34,610 nucleotides of DNA, taken from the IMG/VR virus record IMGVR_UViG_3300025425_000075, positions 1-34,610 of that record; one strand, written 5' to 3'. A program made the position numbers and the translations under genes. Below are positions 1 through 34,610 of this stretch, in pieces (position 1 is the first letter of the stretch; every line of letters begins with the position of its first letter). Below the pieces are notes generated by a model that did not search any database, was not told the origin of the DNA, and worked only from the letters and a program-made list of their open reading frames with translations. The DNA is from a virus.

Positions 1-23
1 AAATAACGGATCTTATTTCGATG

Positions 24-512
24 TTACCTGTCATTTAAGACAGCGTTCAGCCCATTATACAAGCGGACGAATTTTGTCCGTTGTTCCTGTTCAGTTATTA
101 AGTGAGCGTATCTGTGAGCAACTACTTTGCGTTTGTTATCCCAAACAATACGAGCCTTATCCACGTCAGGCACAAAAAAAGTATTTGGGTGTTTTCGCCA
201 TTGTGTTAATTCGCCCTTTTGTACTAATTCCAATATCTCGGCAGGTATTATTTTATTTGTTTGCTCAACATCCACAATCTTACCTTCTTCTCTTTCAATA
301 GCATCTTTAGTTTTCTGAATGCTATCTTTCAAGTTTCGCAAAGATTCATTTTGTCTATCCCATTTATTTAATGTTGTTTGTCCATTCCTTTTGTCGTTTA
401 AAGGCTGTCCGTTTGCTTGCTTAACCGTATCAATATGGTTTTGTAGTTTATCGTCAAATTTTTGCTCTTTTTTAATCAAAGAGTTTTTTAATATTTCAAG
501 TCGTTTGCTCAT
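24..512 (-). CDS. Coiled-coil protein of unknown function (terminal gene, copy 1)
   Basis: 162 aa, not recognised as a named family. Residues 1 to about 85 are very rich in Lys, Glu, Asn and Gln and look like an alpha-helical coiled coil. Residues 95-162 form a compact domain with aromatic and basic residues (QWRKHPNTFF, AHRYAHLI). The last third is repeated at the right end of the window (34378-34610). The two copies differ at 14 bases over 106 bp yet at only two amino acids (NAVLNDR versus NSVLNGR), which indicates selection on the protein. The stop codon lies in a GGTAAC sequence, as in the other copy, where it forms the outer box of an attC-like hairpin. The function is unknown; cassette cargo is an inference. 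Confidence 0.75.
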   Translation of the reverse strand: MSKRLEILKNSLIKKEQKFDDKLQNHIDTVKQANGQPLNDKRNGQTTLNKWDRQNESLRNLKDSIQKTKDAIEREEGKIVDVEQTNKIIPAEILELVQKGELTQWRKHPNTFFVPDVDKARIVWDNKRKVVAHRYAHLITEQEQRTKFVRLYNGLNAVLNDR

Positions 513-535
513 AGTTTCGTGATAAAAACGGCAGG

Positions 536-658
536 TAACACAGTATAAAATTAATACGGGTTTAGTGCCAAATTTCAGCGAATTACCTTTTAATAATTTT
601 CGAGCAGTACGGATGGTTTTCGCTTTTTATTCCCGTACTAATCTTATACAAAACGTTA
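536..658. repeat. attC-like long hairpin, site C
   Basis: Outer boxes TAAC (536-539) and GTTA (655-658) are complementary. They are followed by unequal unpaired spacers (540-543, 4 nt; 649-654, 6 nt) and then a 17-nt inner arm (544-560, TATAAAATTAATACGGG) pairing with 632-648. In the minus strand the arm has 15 Watson-Crick and 2 G-T pairs. The 71-nt loop contains a further stem (AGCGAA...TTCGCT). It lies between the genes at 24-512 and 656-898, and the stop codon of the latter is inside the GTTA box. The layout (R box, unpaired spacer, L box, variable loop) and size fit integron attC sites, but the R boxes do not match the RYYYAAC/GTTRRRY consensus exactly. Confidence 0.5.
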
Positions 659-898
659 TATGTAATGGTTAAAAACATCCTCTTCTATTTCAACACCTCT
701 TACTTTTTCACCGCAGACAGGACAGTTATTAACTCTTATTTTATTTTCAGGAAAACAAGGCATTAATAAAAGTTTATTACCGTTTTCGTCAAGTCTGCTA
801 AACCATTGGTAATTTTTAAATGTCTGCTCAAAATAACCACAACATATAACACTTGGTATAGTGCATGGCTTAGTTTCAGTTTCTTTATTAGTGTTCAT
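656..898 (-). CDS. Small zinc-ribbon protein
   Basis: 80 aa. CPVC (C59, C62) together with upstream cysteines (C12, C19, C20) suggests a small zinc ribbon. The C-terminal part (RVNNCPVCG) resembles short zinc-ribbon proteins common in phages, sometimes loosely compared with the restriction-alleviation protein Lar; I cannot show that function. It starts 71 bp after the primase-helicase stop and ends inside hairpin site C, so it may be cassette cargo rather than part of the replication operon. Confidence 0.7.
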   Translation of the reverse strand: MNTNKETETKPCTIPSVICCGYFEQTFKNYQWFSRLDENGNKLLLMPCFPENKIRVNNCPVCGEKVRGVEIEEDVFNHYI

Positions 899-969
899 CT
901 TTATTTAAGTTTTTGTCTGTTTAGTTAATTAGTGGTCTTTAAGTCGCCACGACACCATACAAGATGCCG

Positions 970-2766
970 TTAAAAAGGGCAATCATCTTCTTTATCTAAG
1001 AAGTTTGTATTTGCTTCAATCGGTTTATCTAATTCCATCACGTAGTCTATTGGTTCTTTTTCACCTCCTTTGGTGAAATCCCTATCGCATTTAGGATAGC
1101 CACACATATTATATCTAGCTGAATCAATATCATATTCAAATCTATACTGTTCTCCTATCTTACCCTGATAACTGAATTTAGTTTTACAGTTTATAAAGTC
1201 AGTGCCTGCTGAAGTGTTCTCACTTTCAAAGGTTCGGTGGATCGTAAACCCGTTGTGCGTTTGGTTTCTGAAATCAGCAGAACCACTAACATCGTAAAGG
1301 GTTGGCGCTTCATAAGTACCGTCTTCTTTCTTTCTCATTTTAGTTGGGTGGGCTACTAAAAATATTTGTACATTATTTTGCTGGCAGAACGCTGTTATCC
1401 TAGTTATAACCCTGTCAATCCCTTCCTTTCCAGACATTCCTTTAGGCATTAAGACTTTGTTCCAAGCATCAATCATAAATATGTCTATGCCGAAACTAAA
1501 TATCTGTTCTTGGAATTTATCGAGTAACCAATCCCAATCAACAGAATCACCTGAAACACCTGACGTTTGATAAATTCTCTTATCAGCCCATTTAACGAAC
1601 CTGTTTAGTTCAATTGGTGTTATCCTATGGTTTGAATCCTTTCGTTCAAAGAATGGCTTCCCTATAGACTTCTGAGCCATGTTAGACAAGTGACTCTCTA
1701 ACGGGTTGTGTTCTGGACTAAATATTGAAAGTTTTAAATCCATTTCGTCTATGAGGTTTAGAAGATACCACTCAGCAAATGTAGACTTTCCATGTGAAGG
1801 TATTCCAGTTATGACTGTTAATTGTCCTTGCATGGTGCTAAATATCTCGTGTAACCGCCCGAAACACTTCTTTCTAGGTACTATGGTTTTAGGTAAACCC
1901 TGTTCGTATAGATCAATTAGCTTGCTTTCTAAATCGTTTGCCGTGAATGTTCCACTAACAGGAAATTTAGTTTCACTTGCTAAACTTGTTTTTAGATTTC
2001 CGTTAATCAAATCTTCGTTAGCATCTTTACCTTTCCATTTTACGAATGAGCATCTGTATTTACCTAATCGGTGGGCTATCTTCTCCATAATCTTTTGACC
2101 TTTCTCATCACTATCTGTAGCTATTACAAAGGTTTTAACCTCCGTTAGATACTGCTGTGAGTTAATCCAATAATCGTCATTATCATTAGCTCCTGCTGGT
2201 AGGCTTACGCAGTTATTAAATCCAGCTTCTGACATTGCTAGAACGTCAAACTCACCTTCTACGATGTATATTTTATCGTGTCCTGTTATGCTGTTAATGT
2301 TGTACAGGATAGGCTTTCCGTTCTTTTGTTGCGTGAAGTTCTTTTGCGAATCTCTGTATTTCTTATTCACTAGAATATCCTTCTCAAAGTAATTAAACAC
2401 CATGCAATTCCTTTCCTTTTGCACTTGTGGAATGTAATTCGTCTCCTCTGTGATACCATGTTTTAAAAGTGTTTGTTTGCTTATGGCTCTAGCTTCGCAG
2501 TACTTAACCAAAGCATCTGTAAAGATTGAGTATTGTTTCCATTCCTGAGTTGGTAGGCTATACGTTTTTTTAACCTCAAGCTGATTTGACTCTTTAAATC
2601 CTGTGGCTTCGCAGTGATGGCAATAAGCCGATCCAATATCAAAGTTAACCGCTAGACATAAATCTTTTTTATTCTTTCTTTCGTGGCTACAGCTTGGGCA
2701 GGTTGTTCTCTTTTGCCCTACTTGCGAACCTTTCACTTTTATATCTTCCCAGTTTAAATTTTTCAT
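970..2766 (-). CDS. Bifunctional primase-helicase (T7 gp4-like)
   Basis: 598 aa. An N-terminal zinc finger has CPSC (C23, C26) and CHHC (49-52). A TOPRIM domain has IYIVEGEFD (E170) and ATDSDEKG (D218-D220). A RecA/DnaB-type helicase has Walker A GIPSHGKST (321-329), Walker B IDIFMIDAWN (427-436) and motif H3-like FLVAHPTK (469-476). This is the domain order of T7 gp4, which primes the lagging strand and unwinds DNA at the fork. It overlaps the preceding initiator/loader gene by 4 bp (ATGA), so the two are translationally coupled. No phage DNA polymerase is visible, so host polymerase is probably recruited (inference). Confidence 0.93.
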   Translation of the reverse strand: MKNLNWEDIKVKGSQVGQKRTTCPSCSHERKNKKDLCLAVNFDIGSAYCHHCEATGFKESNQLEVKKTYSLPTQEWKQYSIFTDALVKYCEARAISKQTLLKHGITEETNYIPQVQKERNCMVFNYFEKDILVNKKYRDSQKNFTQQKNGKPILYNINSITGHDKIYIVEGEFDVLAMSEAGFNNCVSLPAGANDNDDYWINSQQYLTEVKTFVIATDSDEKGQKIMEKIAHRLGKYRCSFVKWKGKDANEDLINGNLKTSLASETKFPVSGTFTANDLESKLIDLYEQGLPKTIVPRKKCFGRLHEIFSTMQGQLTVITGIPSHGKSTFAEWYLLNLIDEMDLKLSIFSPEHNPLESHLSNMAQKSIGKPFFERKDSNHRITPIELNRFVKWADKRIYQTSGVSGDSVDWDWLLDKFQEQIFSFGIDIFMIDAWNKVLMPKGMSGKEGIDRVITRITAFCQQNNVQIFLVAHPTKMRKKEDGTYEAPTLYDVSGSADFRNQTHNGFTIHRTFESENTSAGTDFINCKTKFSYQGKIGEQYRFEYDIDSARYNMCGYPKCDRDFTKGGEKEPIDYVMELDKPIEANTNFLDKEDDCPF

Positions 2767-5548: not shown

Positions 5549-5575
5549 CAAATATACATTGTTATATAAAGCAAA
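5549..5575 (-). promoter_or_regulatory. Bacteroidetes-type promoter (P3)
   Basis: A minus-strand TATATTTG (5549-5556) matches the Bacteroidetes -7 consensus TAnnTTTG exactly. It is embedded in a 19-bp sequence (5550-5568) repeated identically at 31791-31809. A TTTG (5572-5575) lies upstream but only 15 bp away, shorter than the usual 19-21. It is just downstream of the terminator at 5602-5637 and starts the replication operon. Confidence 0.6.
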
Positions 5576-15327: not shown

Positions 15328-15437
15328 AAATAAGATGAGTAAGGCAAACAGAATAAATAAACAAAGGCGGTTTGGTTACCAACATCGGAGAAATTCGGTT
15401 CTGAGGGTTCGAGTCCCAGTCTTACTCATTCTTATTT
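15328..15437 (+). other. Long hairpin with tRNA 3'-end-like sequence
   Basis: A 16-bp stem pairs 15328-15343 with 15421-15437, perfect except for one unpaired base (T15430). The 77-nt loop ends with GGGTTCGAGTCCC (15404-15416), the typical T-arm sequence of tRNA, located just before the 3' stem, which also resembles an acceptor stem (AGTAAGG/TCTTACT). No D arm or anticodon arm can be drawn, so this is not a complete tRNA. It is preceded by ATAACGTC, reminiscent of the attC-like sites. Possible explanations are a tRNA-derived remnant, an attachment-like site or a folded RNA. Confidence 0.45.
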
Positions 15438-15446
15438 TTAATGACT

Positions 15447-15504
15447 AGGCTATGAGCCTGTACTTGTATGGCTTTATAGCCTTTGTTGTAGGTAGTTAGC
15501 CTAC
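15447..15504 (+). repeat. Two hairpins in the gap before the 75-aa gene
   Basis: The first hairpin pairs AGGCTATGAGCC (15447-15458) with GGCTTTATAGCCT (15470-15482), with one bulged base and an 11-nt loop. The second is GTAGG-7-CCTAC (15488-15504). The same GTAGG-7-CCTAC palindrome recurs at 15759-15775, on the other side of the gene. Neither is followed by a U-tract, so they are not standard terminators. They probably mark cassette boundaries or RNA-stabilising structures. Confidence 0.45.
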
Positions 15505-15534
15505 GTATTTAATAAACAACTAAAAATTAATAGA

Positions 15535-15762
15535 ATGACTGAAAATGAATTAAAAGGGCTTGGTTTTGAACTGACCCAAAAGTATGAACACAACCAATAT
15601 CATACAAACCGATACGCTAAAGGCGTTTTAGAAGTAGAATTTACCTACGAAGGTGATAAGTTACTTACTTGTGATTTGACTATTTCGGAGCTGAATAGCA
15701 AGGCCGTAACACTTGACGAAATGAAAGCCCTGACACCTATACTTGGAGGATGGCACGAGTAG
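15535..15762 (+). CDS. Small cassette-like hypothetical protein
   Basis: 75 aa, starting MTENELKGLGFELTQKYEHN. It resembles short Bacteroidetes phage and plasmid proteins beginning with MTExELxxLGF; function unknown. It is flanked by matching 17-bp palindromes and followed 13 bp downstream by the attC-like site B, so it has the layout of an integron-type gene cassette (one gene plus 3' recombination hairpin). Confidence 0.65.
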   Translation: MTENELKGLGFELTQKYEHNQYHTNRYAKGVLEVEFTYEGDKLLTCDLTISELNSKAVTLDEMKALTPILGGWHE

Positions 15763-15775
15763 GCTTATTACCTAC

Positions 15776-15832
15776 AACGACCGTATAAAGTTAAGCGTTA
15801 GCGACCTGAAAGGTTAATTTTATACCTCGTTA
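15776..15832 (+). repeat. attC-like hairpin, site B
   Basis: AAC (15776-15778), 5-nt spacer, TATAAAGTTAA (15784-15794); then CCT-GAA-AGG (15805-15813) in the loop; then TTAATTTTATA (15814-15824), 4-nt spacer, GTT(A) (15829-15832). The inner arm pairs over 11 bp with one G-T. The unequal spacers leave one extra unpaired base on one side, as in attC. A 20-bp stretch of the right half (15817-15836) is repeated exactly, inverted, at 34318-34337. It lies directly after a small gene in the same orientation. Confidence 0.55.
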
Positions 15833-15888
15833 AAATACCTAATAAACGCCACTAATTTAATAAACTGGTAAATCTTAAAACAAACAAA

Positions 15889-16482
15889 ATGATATACACT
15901 AAATTTAAAATAGATCAAGTAGCTAATTCAGCTATGACAGCAAAGCAAAAGGAAGATGAGCTTCTAAGAATGGATACGGAAGAAGAATTTAGAGACATTG
16001 AAGGCTATGAAGGTATTTATCAAGCTTCTAATTTAGGTAGAATTAAGTCTTTAACTAGACTAGACGCAAGAGGTCATAAATTAAAAGAGATTATTTTAAA
16101 TCCAACCATATCAGGTCGTGGTTACTTAACGGTTAGTTTATACAATAAATCTAAAAGAAAGAGTATAACTATTCATAAATTAATAGCGATAACTTTCTTG
16201 AATCACGATCCTTGTGGAATGAATATAGTCGTTGACCATATAGACGGAGATAAGCTAAATAACAACTTAGATAATCTTCAGTTGATAACTCAAAGAAAAA
16301 ACGCATCAAAAGATAGGAAAGGTGGCACTTCTAAATATATTGGAGTTAGTTGGTTTTCTAGGTATTCTAAATGGGTGGCTCGTATATACATTAACGGAAA
16401 GAATAAATATTTAGGCACATTCACAGACGAACTCGAAGCAGCTGAAGCCTACCAAACCGAATTAAAAAAAAATAGAATATGA
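15889..16482 (+). CDS. Homing endonuclease, NUMOD4-HNH-AP2
   Basis: 197 aa. Residues 33-75 are a NUMOD4 domain (EEFRDIEGYEGIYQASNLGR). Residues 95-140 are an HNH_3 nuclease (HKLIAITFL, VVDHIDGDKLNN, NLQLITQRKNAS). Residues about 149-190 are an AP2-type DNA-binding domain (YIGVSWFSRYSKW, YLGTFTDELEAAEAY). Such enzymes cut a specific site and are copied into it by recombination. Residues 1-29 are not part of the nuclease: 18 of 29 match the N-terminus of the next gene, so this gene appears to have captured the 5' end of its neighbour. The stop overlaps the next start (ATGA). Confidence 0.9.
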   Translation: MIYTKFKIDQVANSAMTAKQKEDELLRMDTEEEFRDIEGYEGIYQASNLGRIKSLTRLDARGHKLKEIILNPTISGRGYLTVSLYNKSKRKSITIHKLIAITFLNHDPCGMNIVVDHIDGDKLNNNLDNLQLITQRKNASKDRKGGTSKYIGVSWFSRYSKWVARIYINGKNKYLGTFTDELEAAEAYQTELKKNRI

Positions 16483-17366: not shown

Positions 17367-20300
17367 TTATACAGTCGCAAATTCACTTACTTCTGTTAGG
17401 TTTTGGTTCACGTTGTTAATAGCATCTACTGATACGCTAGGTCTAATCTGAGAGCCTCCTGCTACAAATGCTTCTGTTAGTCTAGTATAATCTATTTCTA
17501 CGTTGTTAGCGCCTCCTGTGGAGATTAAACCACCTTTAGCAGCGAAGGAAGTAGGTACGTTTAACGCTACTCCTCTACCTTCTCTTTGGTTAATGAAACT
17601 AAGTGCGCCCATTATACCTAATCTATTGATAAGGCTTGAGGCTTTCTTGTTTACTATATGCGTGCTATTCCCGTCACTGTACATATTCTCACCGCCTTCA
17701 GCTTCTATTCCATTGCCTAAATTAATACCTCCTTGCGCGTGTGATTTACCTTTAAGCGTTCCTTCGAATGATATTCCTTTCTCTGCTTTTCTAATGTTCT
17801 GAATGTTCTTACCTGTTCTAATTGCTACGGCTGCGGCTGGTATTAAACTCAAAGGAAAAGGTACAGATGCTAGAGTCTTTTGAACTGCTAACCCTCCATC
17901 TATTAAAGCGGCTGTAATGGCTAGGGCTTTGTTTTCTCCTGCTATTTCTTTGAGCAGTCCTGAGATAGCAGCCGCTGTATTCATAGCATTGTCTACCTTT
18001 CCTTTCTGCTCTGCTTTATTTACTGCATCCGTTTGCTTAGAATACTTGTCATTTATTAAAGCTATATCTGCGGCTGTTCCTTCAGCGTTTTCAATCTCTG
18101 CTAGTCTTAATCTTTCAAGCTCTTCTAACCTAAGAGTGAATAAACTTTCACCGTTAAGCTTTCTGATTTCTAGCTCATTGTTAAAGTTTTCTAGTAGTCT
18201 TTCAGTTTCCGCGGCTTCTGCTTGAAGGTCTAGTTCTTTCTGCTCATCTTTCAAACCTACGATTAACTCCGCCTTTTGCGCTTGGAACTCTGCTTCTGAA
18301 ATTAGCTTGTTCGATAAACTTAACTCTAACTGAGATAATTCCGCGTCAAATAAATTGTCTAACCTTTCGCTCTCTAAGGCTTTTAATTCACTACTCAGAA
18401 ACTTACCATCTTCTAATACTGATTTATTCTTTTCTCTGAATATCTCGAGTTCTCTTAATCCAGTTTCAACTGCTACTTCTACAGAAGCATCTGCAAAGGT
18501 TTGGTTTATTCCTATACGCTCAGAAGTGAACTCTAAATATTTTAGTTTTCTCTCAGAATCTAAAGCGTTTTTAAACTCTTCACTAGCTTCGTAGGCTGTA
18601 AGTTCTGAATCTAGTATTTTGATTCGTTCGTCACGAAGGATCTGTTCTTGTGTTAGCTTTTCTAGTGATGGGTTTGCTTCATTCTCTTCTTGTAAAAGTT
18701 TTAGTCTTAGTTTACTTGCGCTAATCTCTGCCTCTGAGTTTCTTTTTATTATATCTAAAGCTTTCTTTGCGTTCTGTTCTTCTATTTGCTTTAACTTTTT
18801 TGCATCTTCTTCTATTTGCTTTAACTTTTTTGCATCTTCTTCTATTTGCTTTAACGCTTCGGTATCACTTTTTGCTTTTTCGTCTGCTGCTATTTGTCTG
18901 GCGTTTTTAACTCCAGTAACTGAAGAAATTATGTCTTCGTTTAGTTCTATGTCTTTTGTAGTTGTTTTAACACCATCTTCTAAGCCTTTAATATATTGTG
19001 CATAAACTAACTGCTGTTCCTTATTTAACTTAATAGAACTACCTACACCTGAACTATACTTACCTGTAGATGTAGTTACTTTCTGAAGTACACCGTCTAC
19101 CTTTTGAACTGCTCCTACTCCTTCAATATATGTAACATTTCCTTCTTTGTTAATTTTATCTACTCTTTCTAATTCGTCACCTAGTTCAGATAATACTTTC
19201 TTTTGTTTATCTATATTTACTTCAGCTTGTAGGCTAGATATTTTACCGTTTTCTTGATTGAACTCTTTTACTTTTCCCGTATTAATTTCTAAAGCGTTAC
19301 CATACTTATCAACTTCAGTAACTGCGCTCGGTACATTTCTAGCTATGTCTTTTATTATTTTATCTAGTTCTATTTGTTCTTCTTTTGATTTTCCTGCTTT
19401 TGTTTTTAATGTGTCATATCTATCTGCCATAGTAGAAAGTTTATCATTCAATTCTACTGATGCTTTGGCTTGAGTAATAAATTCCTCATTACTTTTATGA
19501 AGTTCTTTTACGTTTTCGCTTATTGATTTATTTACATTTCTAAATGCAGCTACTAAAGCTATTAACCCTCCAATAACTAAAAGCAAAGCGTTAGCCTTTA
19601 GAGCTTTGTTAAATGCTTTAAATGAGAATGTAGCCAGACTAACCCCTTTAGCTTGACCTAACATAGCCATTCTAGTAATAGATGCTTGTTTAGCCATTAA
19701 AGAACTTTGAAGACTAGCCAATAAAACAGCAGCTTTATAAGCACCCCAAACTCCGACTACCGTTATTAATGCTTTTGCTATCAAACCTAGATTATCAGCT
19801 AATACTAAAATGACATCTTTAACCGTTCCAAAAACTCCCGTCCCTTGTTCAAACTTTAAGATCAAACCTTCCCAAGCTGATTGAAGTAATTTAATAGAAC
19901 CGCCTAAAGTATCCCTTTGAGTTTCTGCCATTTGTTTAGCAGCTCCTTCACTGTCTATCATCTTCTCAGTTAACCCTTGTACATCTTCCTGCGTGTTAGC
20001 TAAGATAACCCCTAAAGTAGCACCCCTAACTCCGAACAAATCCATAGCAGTACCAGTCTGGTCTGTAGAATCTTTTATTTTATTAAGTGCTTCCCCGAAT
20101 GACAGCCCAGCTTTATTGGAACGTAGGAACATATTCCTAAGTCCTGTTCCTGCTGTACTAGCATCCAAACCTCTGTCTGTTAAAGTTCCTATTAATGCTG
20201 TGGTTTTCTCTATGCTCACACCTGCTAGATTAGCTACAGGAGCTACTGAAGCCATTGCAGTACTAAACTTAGCCATGTCTAAGGATGAACTAGTGAATGA

Positions 20301-31761: not shown

Positions 31762-31789
31762 TTTGTTTCTTTTAATTTGTTTGATGATG

Positions 31790-31823
31790 TAAATATACAT
31801 TGTTATATACTTGCTTTTACAAA
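31790..31823 (-). promoter_or_regulatory. Bacteroidetes-type promoter (P2)
   Basis: TATATTTA (31790-31797, minus strand) with TTTG (31820-31823) 22 bp upstream. It contains the 19-bp element (31791-31809) identical to that at P3 (5550-5568). It drives the 31.7-28.3 kb unit (small protein, ERF, SSB, terminase). Confidence 0.65.
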
Positions 31824-33183: not shown

Positions 33184-33205
33184 TTGATTTGTTTGTTTGA
33201 TGGCG

Positions 33206-33238
33206 TAAATATACATATTTATATAATACACCGACAAA
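33206..33238 (-). promoter_or_regulatory. Bacteroidetes-type promoter (P1)
   Basis: Minus-strand TATATTTA (33206-33213) and TTTG (33235-33238) with 21-bp spacing, close to the Bacteroidetes consensus (TTTG, 19-21 bp, TAnnTTTG). The surrounding 19 bp (33207-33225) match the P2/P3 element at 17 positions. Confidence 0.65.
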
Positions 33239-33684: not shown

Positions 33685-34308
33685 TTAATTATAAATCCCT
33701 ATTATCTTATTGAATATATTTCTAGCTTCTTTAGCATCTTTCAAATCGTAGGTTTCAAAGTTCCGAACTAACGACCTCACTAATTTTAGCTTGTTGCTTA
33801 TCTCCTGTTCTTTCAATCCTAGATACTTGTATTTAACCTGTAGCTCGGTGTCTACCATGTTAGCATAGTCTAAACCGTACCTTTCAATTAAGCCTTTAAA
33901 ATAGCCTGTATTCCTGCTCCCTTGCCTTTCATTACGATTACACCCTCGATCCTGTGCGTGTATGTTATGGAGGTTATATCTTAGAGTGGAGTTAGCTCCT
34001 ACACTGGTGTAATGACCTCCGTCTACGTTCTCCATATACTTACCACAATCTATGCAATTAGAGTGATTAAACTTCTTATCTATCATCCTAGAGAGTTTAT
34101 TAATCTCTGCCTGTAGATAGCCTTTTGTTTCTTTCGTGTGGGTAAATGGTCTTAGTTCTTTCTTTGTCTTCGTCCATTCTTTCTTCTTCGCGACTTTCTG
34201 CTTACCTAGAAGAAACATTCCTTTAGCTACTTGGCAGTCGATTTCCTTGCAGAATTTTCCGTTAAATTCATAAGGCTCAAATTTATCTTTGCAGTTTTTA
34301 CATCTCAT
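33685..34308 (-). CDS. ninG: NinG/Rap-like recombination nuclease
   Basis: 207 aa. An N-terminal zinc knuckle has C3, C6, C20 and C25. The central NinG core has CIDCGK (85-90), GGHYTSVGANSTLRYNLHN (97-115) and IHAQDRGCNR (116-125), with His and Cys ligands in place. Lambda NinG (Rap) cuts recombination intermediates such as Holliday junctions. With ERF, SSB and the NinB-like protein it forms a recombination module. The gene starts 14 bp after the attC-like site A. Confidence 0.88.
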   Translation of the reverse strand: MRCKNCKDKFEPYEFNGKFCKEIDCQVAKGMFLLGKQKVAKKKEWTKTKKELRPFTHTKETKGYLQAEINKLSRMIDKKFNHSNCIDCGKYMENVDGGHYTSVGANSTLRYNLHNIHAQDRGCNRNERQGSRNTGYFKGLIERYGLDYANMVDTELQVKYKYLGLKEQEISNKLKLVRSLVRNFETYDLKDAKEARNIFNKIIGIYN

Positions 34309-34321
34309 GTTTTCAAAATTT

Positions 34322-34380
34322 TAACGAGGTATAAAATAAACCCTATTGGGTCGTTTACACTTAATTTTATACAGGTGTTA
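34322..34380 (-). repeat. attC-like hairpin, site A
   Basis: TAAC (34322-34325), 4-nt spacer, TATAAAAT (34330-34337); loop with CCC-TATT-GGG (34341-34350); then ATTTTATA (34364-34371), 5-nt spacer, GTTA (34377-34380). The extra spacer base is the unpaired asymmetry seen in attC. A 20-bp half (34318-34337) is identical, inverted, to 15817-15836 at site B. The stop codon of the partial gene beginning beyond the window lies inside the GTTA box, and the site is oriented like a cassette end (gene, then site, minus strand). Confidence 0.55.
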
Positions 34381-34610
34381 CCTGCCATTTAAAACAGAGT
34401 TCAGTCCATTATATAGTCGAACAAATTTAGTCCGCTGTTCCTGTTCAGTAATTAAGTGAGCGTATCTGTGAGCAACAACTTTACGTTTGTTATCCCAAAC
34501 AATACGAGCCTTATCCACGTCAGGCACAAAAAAAGTATTTGGGTGTTTTCGCCATTGTGTTAATTCGCCCTTTTGTACTAATTCCAATATCTCGGCAGGT
34601 ATTATTTTAT
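34378..34610 (-). CDS. Coiled-coil protein, copy 2 (partial, 5' end beyond window)
   Basis: 3' part of a second copy of the gene at 24-512. The reading frame stays open to the last base. The first 106 bp (34378-34483) differ from 24-129 at 14 positions; the last 127 bp (34484-34610) are identical to 130-256. It is either a second allele joined by assembly or a true paralogue. The C-terminal residues are NSVLNGR instead of NAVLNDR. Confidence 0.75.
   Translation of the reverse strand, partial: KIIPAEILELVQKGELTQWRKHPNTFFVPDVDKARIVWDNKRKVVAHRYAHLITEQEQRTKFVRLYNGLNSVLNGR

Follow-up and report, generated by a model that had tools for sequence, protein, structure and literature searches.

The window is the whole stretch of DNA analysed here, 34,610 nucleotides of the virus record IMGVR_UViG_3300025425_000075. 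It contains five hairpins, each flanked by short AAC-type and GTT-type boxes or variants of them, together with small genes of unknown function and several phage genes. The features are as follows:

23-538, minus strand: body of the cassette of gene X, copy 1, with ends GTTACCTGCCGTTTT and, as reverse complement, GTTACCTGTCATTTA.
24-512, minus strand: open reading frame of gene X, copy 1, 162 aa, unknown.
537-657, minus strand: hairpin between gene Y and the first copy of gene X, with boxes TAAC/GTTA, an 18-bp stem and a 71-nt loop.
655-849, minus strand: body of the gene Y cassette, with ends GTTATATGTTGTGGT and, as reverse complement, GTTATATGTAATGGT.
656-898, minus strand: open reading frame of gene Y, 80 aa, rich in cysteine, unknown.
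847-971, minus strand: hairpin of the Y cassette (AAC at 969-971, GTT at 847-849), directly after the primase stop codon.
15439-15487, plus strand: hairpin opening array B (box TAAT at 15439-15442, GTT at 15485-15487).
15441/15442, no strand: point at which a sister contig switches to other cassettes, right after TTTTTAA, the last three letters being the TAA of the box.
15485-15778, plus strand: cassette body of array B, with ends GTTGTAGGTAGTTAGCC and, as reverse complement, GTTGTAGGTAATAAGCC.
15535-15762, plus strand: open reading frame of the array B cassette, 75 aa, unknown.
15776-15831, plus strand: short TATAAA-type hairpin before the HNH gene, with boxes CAAC/GTTA and a 12-bp stem containing one G.T pair.
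15889-16482, plus strand: HNH/NUMOD4 endonuclease gene (by domain match), after the probable terminal site.
33685-34308, minus strand: ninG, a phage core gene (PF05766, E 3e-20), after the probable terminal site.
34323-34379, minus strand: short TATAAA-type hairpin between the cassette of the second copy of gene X and ninG, with boxes TAAC/GTTA.
34378-34610, minus strand: gene X, copy 2, truncated by the end of the window, with its stop codon in GGCAGGTAAC.

A preliminary description had placed three hairpins at 536-658, 15776-15832 and 34322-34380. All three are present (537-657, 15776-15831 and 34323-34379), and those at 847-971 and 15439-15487 had been missed. The three first noted share one order of parts: AAC (as YAAC), 3 to 6 nt, stem, loop, stem, 3 to 6 nt and GTT(R). 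The hairpin at 847-971 reads TAAC, ggcat, CTTGTATGGTGTCGTGGC, a 76-nt loop, GCCATGCACTATACCAAG, t and GTTATATGTTGTGG; the primase stop codon lies inside its upstream box and the ATG of gene Y (position 898) inside its loop. Stop codons within boxes, as described before, were found for the second copy of gene X (GGCAGGTAAC) and for gene Y (ACATATAAC). The halves 34318-34342 and 15812-15836 of the two short hairpins match at 96% over 25 nt with the first 20 exact, in agreement with the 20-bp half-site that had been read there. When folded as single-stranded DNA and compared with shuffled sequences, the hairpins at 537-657, 15776-15831 and 34323-34379 gave z-scores of -2.07, -2.75 and -1.31, and the two added ones gave -3.89 (15439-15487) and only -0.27 (847-971, not significant). 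Such folds, only moderately better than those of shuffles, are no proof by themselves; the proof is supplied by comparison. A scan of the window with Rfam at the gathering threshold and with ARAGORN returned no matches.

Pattern scans located the short TATAAA-type hairpin in four other viral records (L002, L003, L013 and L042). The strict form of the pattern had zero matches across 84,980 genomes, and the short type has therefore not been seen in chromosomes; the single match of a second genome pattern was a 44,947-bp MAG contig, taken as the same sequence as the phage contig L059. No matching cassette end was located downstream of the TATAAA-type sites, and none was found for the HNH/NUMOD4 gene at 15889-16482. 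The hairpins at 15776-15831 and 34323-34379 look like terminal sites beside phage core genes, and are probably not cassette hairpins.

The two copies of gene X are 92% identical over 247 bp. The 162-aa gene was found in 13 phage contigs, in which the closer copies are flanked by GTTACCTGCC...GGCAGGTAAC and the adjoining hairpins differ; in four of the loci (L056-L059) X genes in cassette form are at least 92% identical next to different hairpins. The coupling of hairpin and gene is not absolute, because cassettes of gene X adjoin several different hairpins. A homologue of gene Y, 44% identical, occurs in L043/L002, likewise within an array. Several side observations were made on the record. 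Gene X stands at both of its ends (1-512 and 34378-34610), so that the genome may be circularly permuted, and a permutation may put tandem X cassettes at the assembly break. Just before array B, a tRNA-like element at 15335-15429 (GAGTAAGG...GGTTCGAGTCCCAGTCTTACTC) has parts resembling an acceptor arm and a T arm; it received no tRNA call from ARAGORN, and the cassette junction lies 12 nt downstream. A TTTGTTTGATGNNGTAAATATACATNNTTATATA-like repeat stands upstream of genes at 5550-5568, 31776-31809 and 33192-33225, and is perhaps a phage promoter. At 18777-18866, a 30-bp in-frame repeat occurs three times in tandem within a tape-measure-like gene.

The exchange of genes exactly at the hairpins on an otherwise constant backbone, which the preliminary description had predicted, was met in a second record, IMGVR_UViG_3300005939_000092 (L209/G417), which represents the same phage with 98.9% identity over 11.8 kb. 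All 2760 of the 2760 bases before the junction at 15441/15442 are identical to the window, and nothing after it is similar; past the junction the sister contig carries different hairpins and cassettes, namely those of a HAD-like ORF and of a DNA methyltransferase, identifications that rest on inspection of the translations by eye. At its opposite end, the contig breaks off at the TAA of the primase box, which is where the other array of the window begins, as expected if the assembly broke at a variable junction. As a side observation, this end suggests that several alternative cassettes exist there in the population. Reordering was found between L102 and L103, whose DNA beside the array, including the integrase, is 98-99% identical: they share four cassettes, 99-100% identical, in the order a-b-c-d in one and c-d-b-a in the other. 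Gain or loss of a block was found between L043 and L044 (about 90% identical), where a 92-aa ORF, a YopX gene and two hairpins lie between two genes in one phage and are missing from between those genes in the other.

Recurring hairpins indicate how the units are delimited. In 12 cases, a hairpin shared by two contigs is followed by the same gene and preceded by a different box, and in none was the reverse found; the unit is therefore the hairpin with the gene that follows it, cut between YAAC and the hairpin. Two of the 12 are sites of the window, namely 537-657, of which the same hairpin with gene X stands behind a different upstream box in L058, and 15776-15831, of which a near-identical hairpin stands behind a different upstream box in L043. 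The assignment of each hairpin to the gene preceding it, as first proposed, does not hold in the phages. The alignments establish that units begin and end at the YAAC/hairpin boundary, are swapped whole and are reordered between near-identical phages. It could be argued that ordinary mosaicism produced these patterns, through recombination, homologous or illegitimate, at short conserved linkers, the hairpins then being terminators or 5' regulatory elements and not recombination sites. Phage genomes are indeed mosaic, and the hairpins lie between genes, often around start codons; yet only 3-4 bases are shared at the junctions, cassettes of 99-100% identity move with exact ends and in changed order, the inverted ends of a unit match each other and not those of the neighbour, and a dedicated recombinase with a conserved insertion point, described below, stands at one end. 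Mosaicism alone is regarded as very improbable, and the reading as cassettes that move as units is preferred.

The signature of these cassettes was derived from scans of about 1.3 Mb of loci. An inverted-end scan found that a cassette starts with GTTRnnnnnnG and ends with the reverse complement carrying A at position 11, so that the boxes are inverted repeats of about 15 bp with a fixed G/A difference at that position. This G/A class comprises 124 units (104 unique) and is nearly absent from reversed sequence. Inverted ends alone were rejected as a signature (273 in real and 195 in reversed sequence), and the G/A position was needed for separation. Within each unit, the inverted ends match one another rather than those of the neighbour. 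For the hairpins, signal and noise were separated only by stem scoring with YAAC/GTTR boxes, by which 92 hairpins scoring at least 30 were found in real and 5 in reversed sequence; scans for AAC/GTT based on RNAfold were dropped, with equal numbers of matches in reversed sequence. An upstream hairpin scoring at least 26 was present at 121 of the 146 cassette starts, compared with 137 of 6550 random GTTR positions. A covariance model built from a MAFFT alignment of 21 hairpins had zero consensus pairs and was not used. In 94 of the phage units the gene stands after the hairpin, and in 5 before it; 42 of the 95 phage cassette genes start within the hairpin (by the longest ATG frame), and 74 of the 95 stop inside the last 16 nt of the unit.

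The hairpins also differ between strands. Among 89 distinct hairpins, the strand on the coding side folds better than its complement in 82 and worse in 4; the difference comes from G.T pairs, which stand in a fixed sense in 92 instances and in the opposite one in 18, and box position 11 adds one more. This asymmetry suggests, without proof, that recombination acts on a single strand in folded form. A hairpin with a short flanking tetranucleotide and strand asymmetry would also be expected of IS200/IS605 or REP/RAYT palindromes, which a Y1 transposase mobilises as single strands. Here, however, a gene with inverted boxes at its ends is part of what moves, and the enzyme linked to it belongs to the tyrosine recombinases (a dedicated search for Y1 transposases was not made), so that such palindromes can hardly be entertained as the explanation.

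Integrons are known mainly through IntI, in which an extra helix is held to permit the reading of folded attC. In the related phages, a different enzyme was found beside cassettes of the present kind. In L047, four hairpins are followed by a 276-aa tyrosine recombinase, which as a query recovered 34 viral loci, 28 of them with cassettes or hairpins. Between the last cassette and the start of the integrase, the motif AAC-N4/5-ATATGTA is present in 21 of 23 loci, and in 13 loci a cassette ends on its AAC, 52-54 nt before the integrase start codon. As far as sequence comparison can establish it, the last cassette in the integrase-bearing phages is fused to this motif just before the integrase gene, at a site comparable to attI; the window itself has no such site. 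The phage integrase has no IntI-specific insertion. With the integron integrase model TIGR02249, the L047 protein scores 158.6 bits against a cut-off of 265, and its best curated match is XerA-type at 184 bits (cut-off 220), which leaves it below every curated cut-off. A tree of 66 sequences separated the phage integrases (support 1.0), IntI (1.0) and Xer (0.92), and gave only weak support (0.29) for placing the phage enzymes together with chromosomal homologues. That the contigs with integrase or array belong to phages is supported by portal, virion or terminase genes on several of them; on most integrase contigs no terminase match was found. The window phage encodes no tyrosine recombinase within its 34.6-kb record, which may be incomplete, and in this the earlier statement that no integrase was visible holds. 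Its sites must therefore be served in trans.

A search of 395 Bacteroidota genomes gave homologues of the phage integrase with at best 38-46% identity and no close relative (>50%), and a host source for the phage clade is therefore not shown. These chromosomal homologues often adjoin G/A cassettes and hairpins, with the gene before the hairpin in 27 of 28. An orientation of the chromosomal cassettes toward their integrase was considered and rejected, since the ORFs showed the opposite. Four of the chromosomal integrases (L120, L122, L126 and L133) are extended at the N-terminus by about 90 aa, a stretch that seems to be repeated in L133. Separate from these homologues, IntI above the cut-off was found in 84 of 296 Bacteroidota genomes, and the IntI-linked arrays (L185-L193) have boxes of about 10 bp, no G/A signature and genes before the hairpins. 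Their classical IntI with long attC arrays appears commoner in Bacteroidota than the literature found suggests; in the IntegronFinder 2 study (PMC9024848), Bacteroidetes had earlier yielded only integrases without cassettes, and one complete integron was given, that of Salinibacter ruber.

In Qi et al. 2023 (PMC9892861), integrons and CALINs are reported in phages, Polaribacter phage P12002L is listed as a CALIN phage, and IntI1 expressed in E. coli recombined its attC2, the only published result found that bears on recombination of a folded strand in this setting. Beside its methyltransferases, P12002L has hairpins and cassettes like those described here, so that one instance of this site type has probably been touched experimentally already, with the coordinates of attC2 unmatched. 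This result and the 84 genomes with IntI favour a reading in which the window sites are ordinary attC captured from a bacterial integron and mobilised by a classical host IntI, which would make them a CALIN, a cluster of attC without an integrase. Against it, IntI arrays of the same phylum have box repeats of about 10 bp without the G/A position and genes before the hairpins, and arrays of the present type adjoin a non-IntI integrase. The sites are not canonical attC, since GTTRRRY fits only 4 of 135 cassettes and the associated integrase is without the IntI insertion. Ordinary attC sites are hence considered unlikely.

The reading to which the evidence leads gives the window phage an integron-type cassette system and no integrase of its own; it is held with considerable confidence, the folded-strand mechanism in trans being inferred. 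That the sites are recombination sites of such a system is well supported by the comparisons, in the absence of a recombination assay, and the idea of integron-type cassettes bounded by attC-like hairpins has gained support from exact replacement, reordering, and the integrase and attI-like site of relatives. A cassette consists of the hairpin (C, spacer, stem, loop, stem, spacer), then GTTR and a single small gene, and closes with a 3' box whose last letters are YAAC. With the hairpin before the gene and the start codon often in the loop, each cassette would carry its own 5' region. It is inferred that a tyrosine recombinase of the array-adjoining family cuts at the AAC box, that in the excised circle the inverted boxes and the hairpin would pair into one folded site, and that the circle may be reinserted at the attI-like site or at another hairpin. 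The folded strand is presumed to be the coding strand, because the fixed G.T pairs make it more stable than its complement. For the window phage, the enzyme might be supplied by a second phage infecting the same cell, by a prophage or by the host, and the short TATAAA-type hairpins may be docking or terminal sites. It is likely, although inferred, that the folded strand is recombined in trans by an enzyme other than IntI.

Taken jointly, the observations lean, with some reserve, towards a second integron platform of Bacteroidota and their phages, in which a tyrosine recombinase without the IntI insertion would read the strand from fixed G.T pairs. The phage branch would have turned the cassette round, so that hairpin and 5' region precede the gene and travel with it as one self-contained unit, and a phage-only pool of cassettes would be used also by phages without an integrase, such as that of the window. 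Arrays beside insertion-less recombinases make it testable whether hairpin recombination arose more than once or predates the insertion. They also offer a concrete route by which phages may swap small accessory genes singly, such as those for methyltransferases, YopX and unknown proteins, and the 15-bp inverted ends with the fixed G/A difference, together with an AAC...GTT hairpin, provide a signature for searches. Overall, this Bacteroidota phage and the other phages with such units seem to share an integron-type system, so far overlooked, through which accessory genes pass between phages.

Attention to attC sites in phages is not new. The phage integrons and CALINs of PMC9892861 likewise have attC-like sites and methyltransferase cassettes; that paper gives canonical IntI/attC predictions, and no mention was found in it of the present integrase, attI motif, cassette-end signature or hairpin-first orientation. 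No published description of this integrase, its attI or hairpin-first cassettes was found elsewhere in a search that left out preprints and most subscription journals. With classical integrons, the present system shares single-gene cassettes between AAC...GTT hairpins whose own boxes are complementary, cassette shuffling with gain and loss at the box (here from comparative evidence) and, in the related phages, an attI-like site beside a tyrosine recombinase. The attC architecture of AAC, spacer, stem, loop, stem, spacer and GTT with strand asymmetry is met in the present hairpins, but the asymmetry comes from fixed G.T pairs and not from demonstrated extrahelical bases. The box consensus RYYYAAC / GTTRRRY is not met, the boxes being about 15 bp with a fixed G.T; the integrase is without the IntI insertion and forms its own clade; and in the phages the gene is reversed relative to the site, with the hairpin before it. 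The IntI-linked integrons of Bacteroidota resemble the present arrays in phylum, hairpins and own-box complementarity, and differ in their true IntI, shorter boxes without the G/A position and genes before the hairpins. Xer recombinases (XerC/XerD/XerA) include the best curated match of the phage integrase, which nevertheless falls outside the Xer clade and is linked to cassette arrays. A CALIN is defined by at least 2 attC sites that lack a nearby integrase and can be recognised by attC covariance models; the window has five sites and no integrase, and the covariance model built here gave no consensus pairs. In conclusion, the system is not a classical integron in the strict sense, since on testing it departs from one in the IntI insertion, in the GTTRRRY box and in the order of gene before attC.
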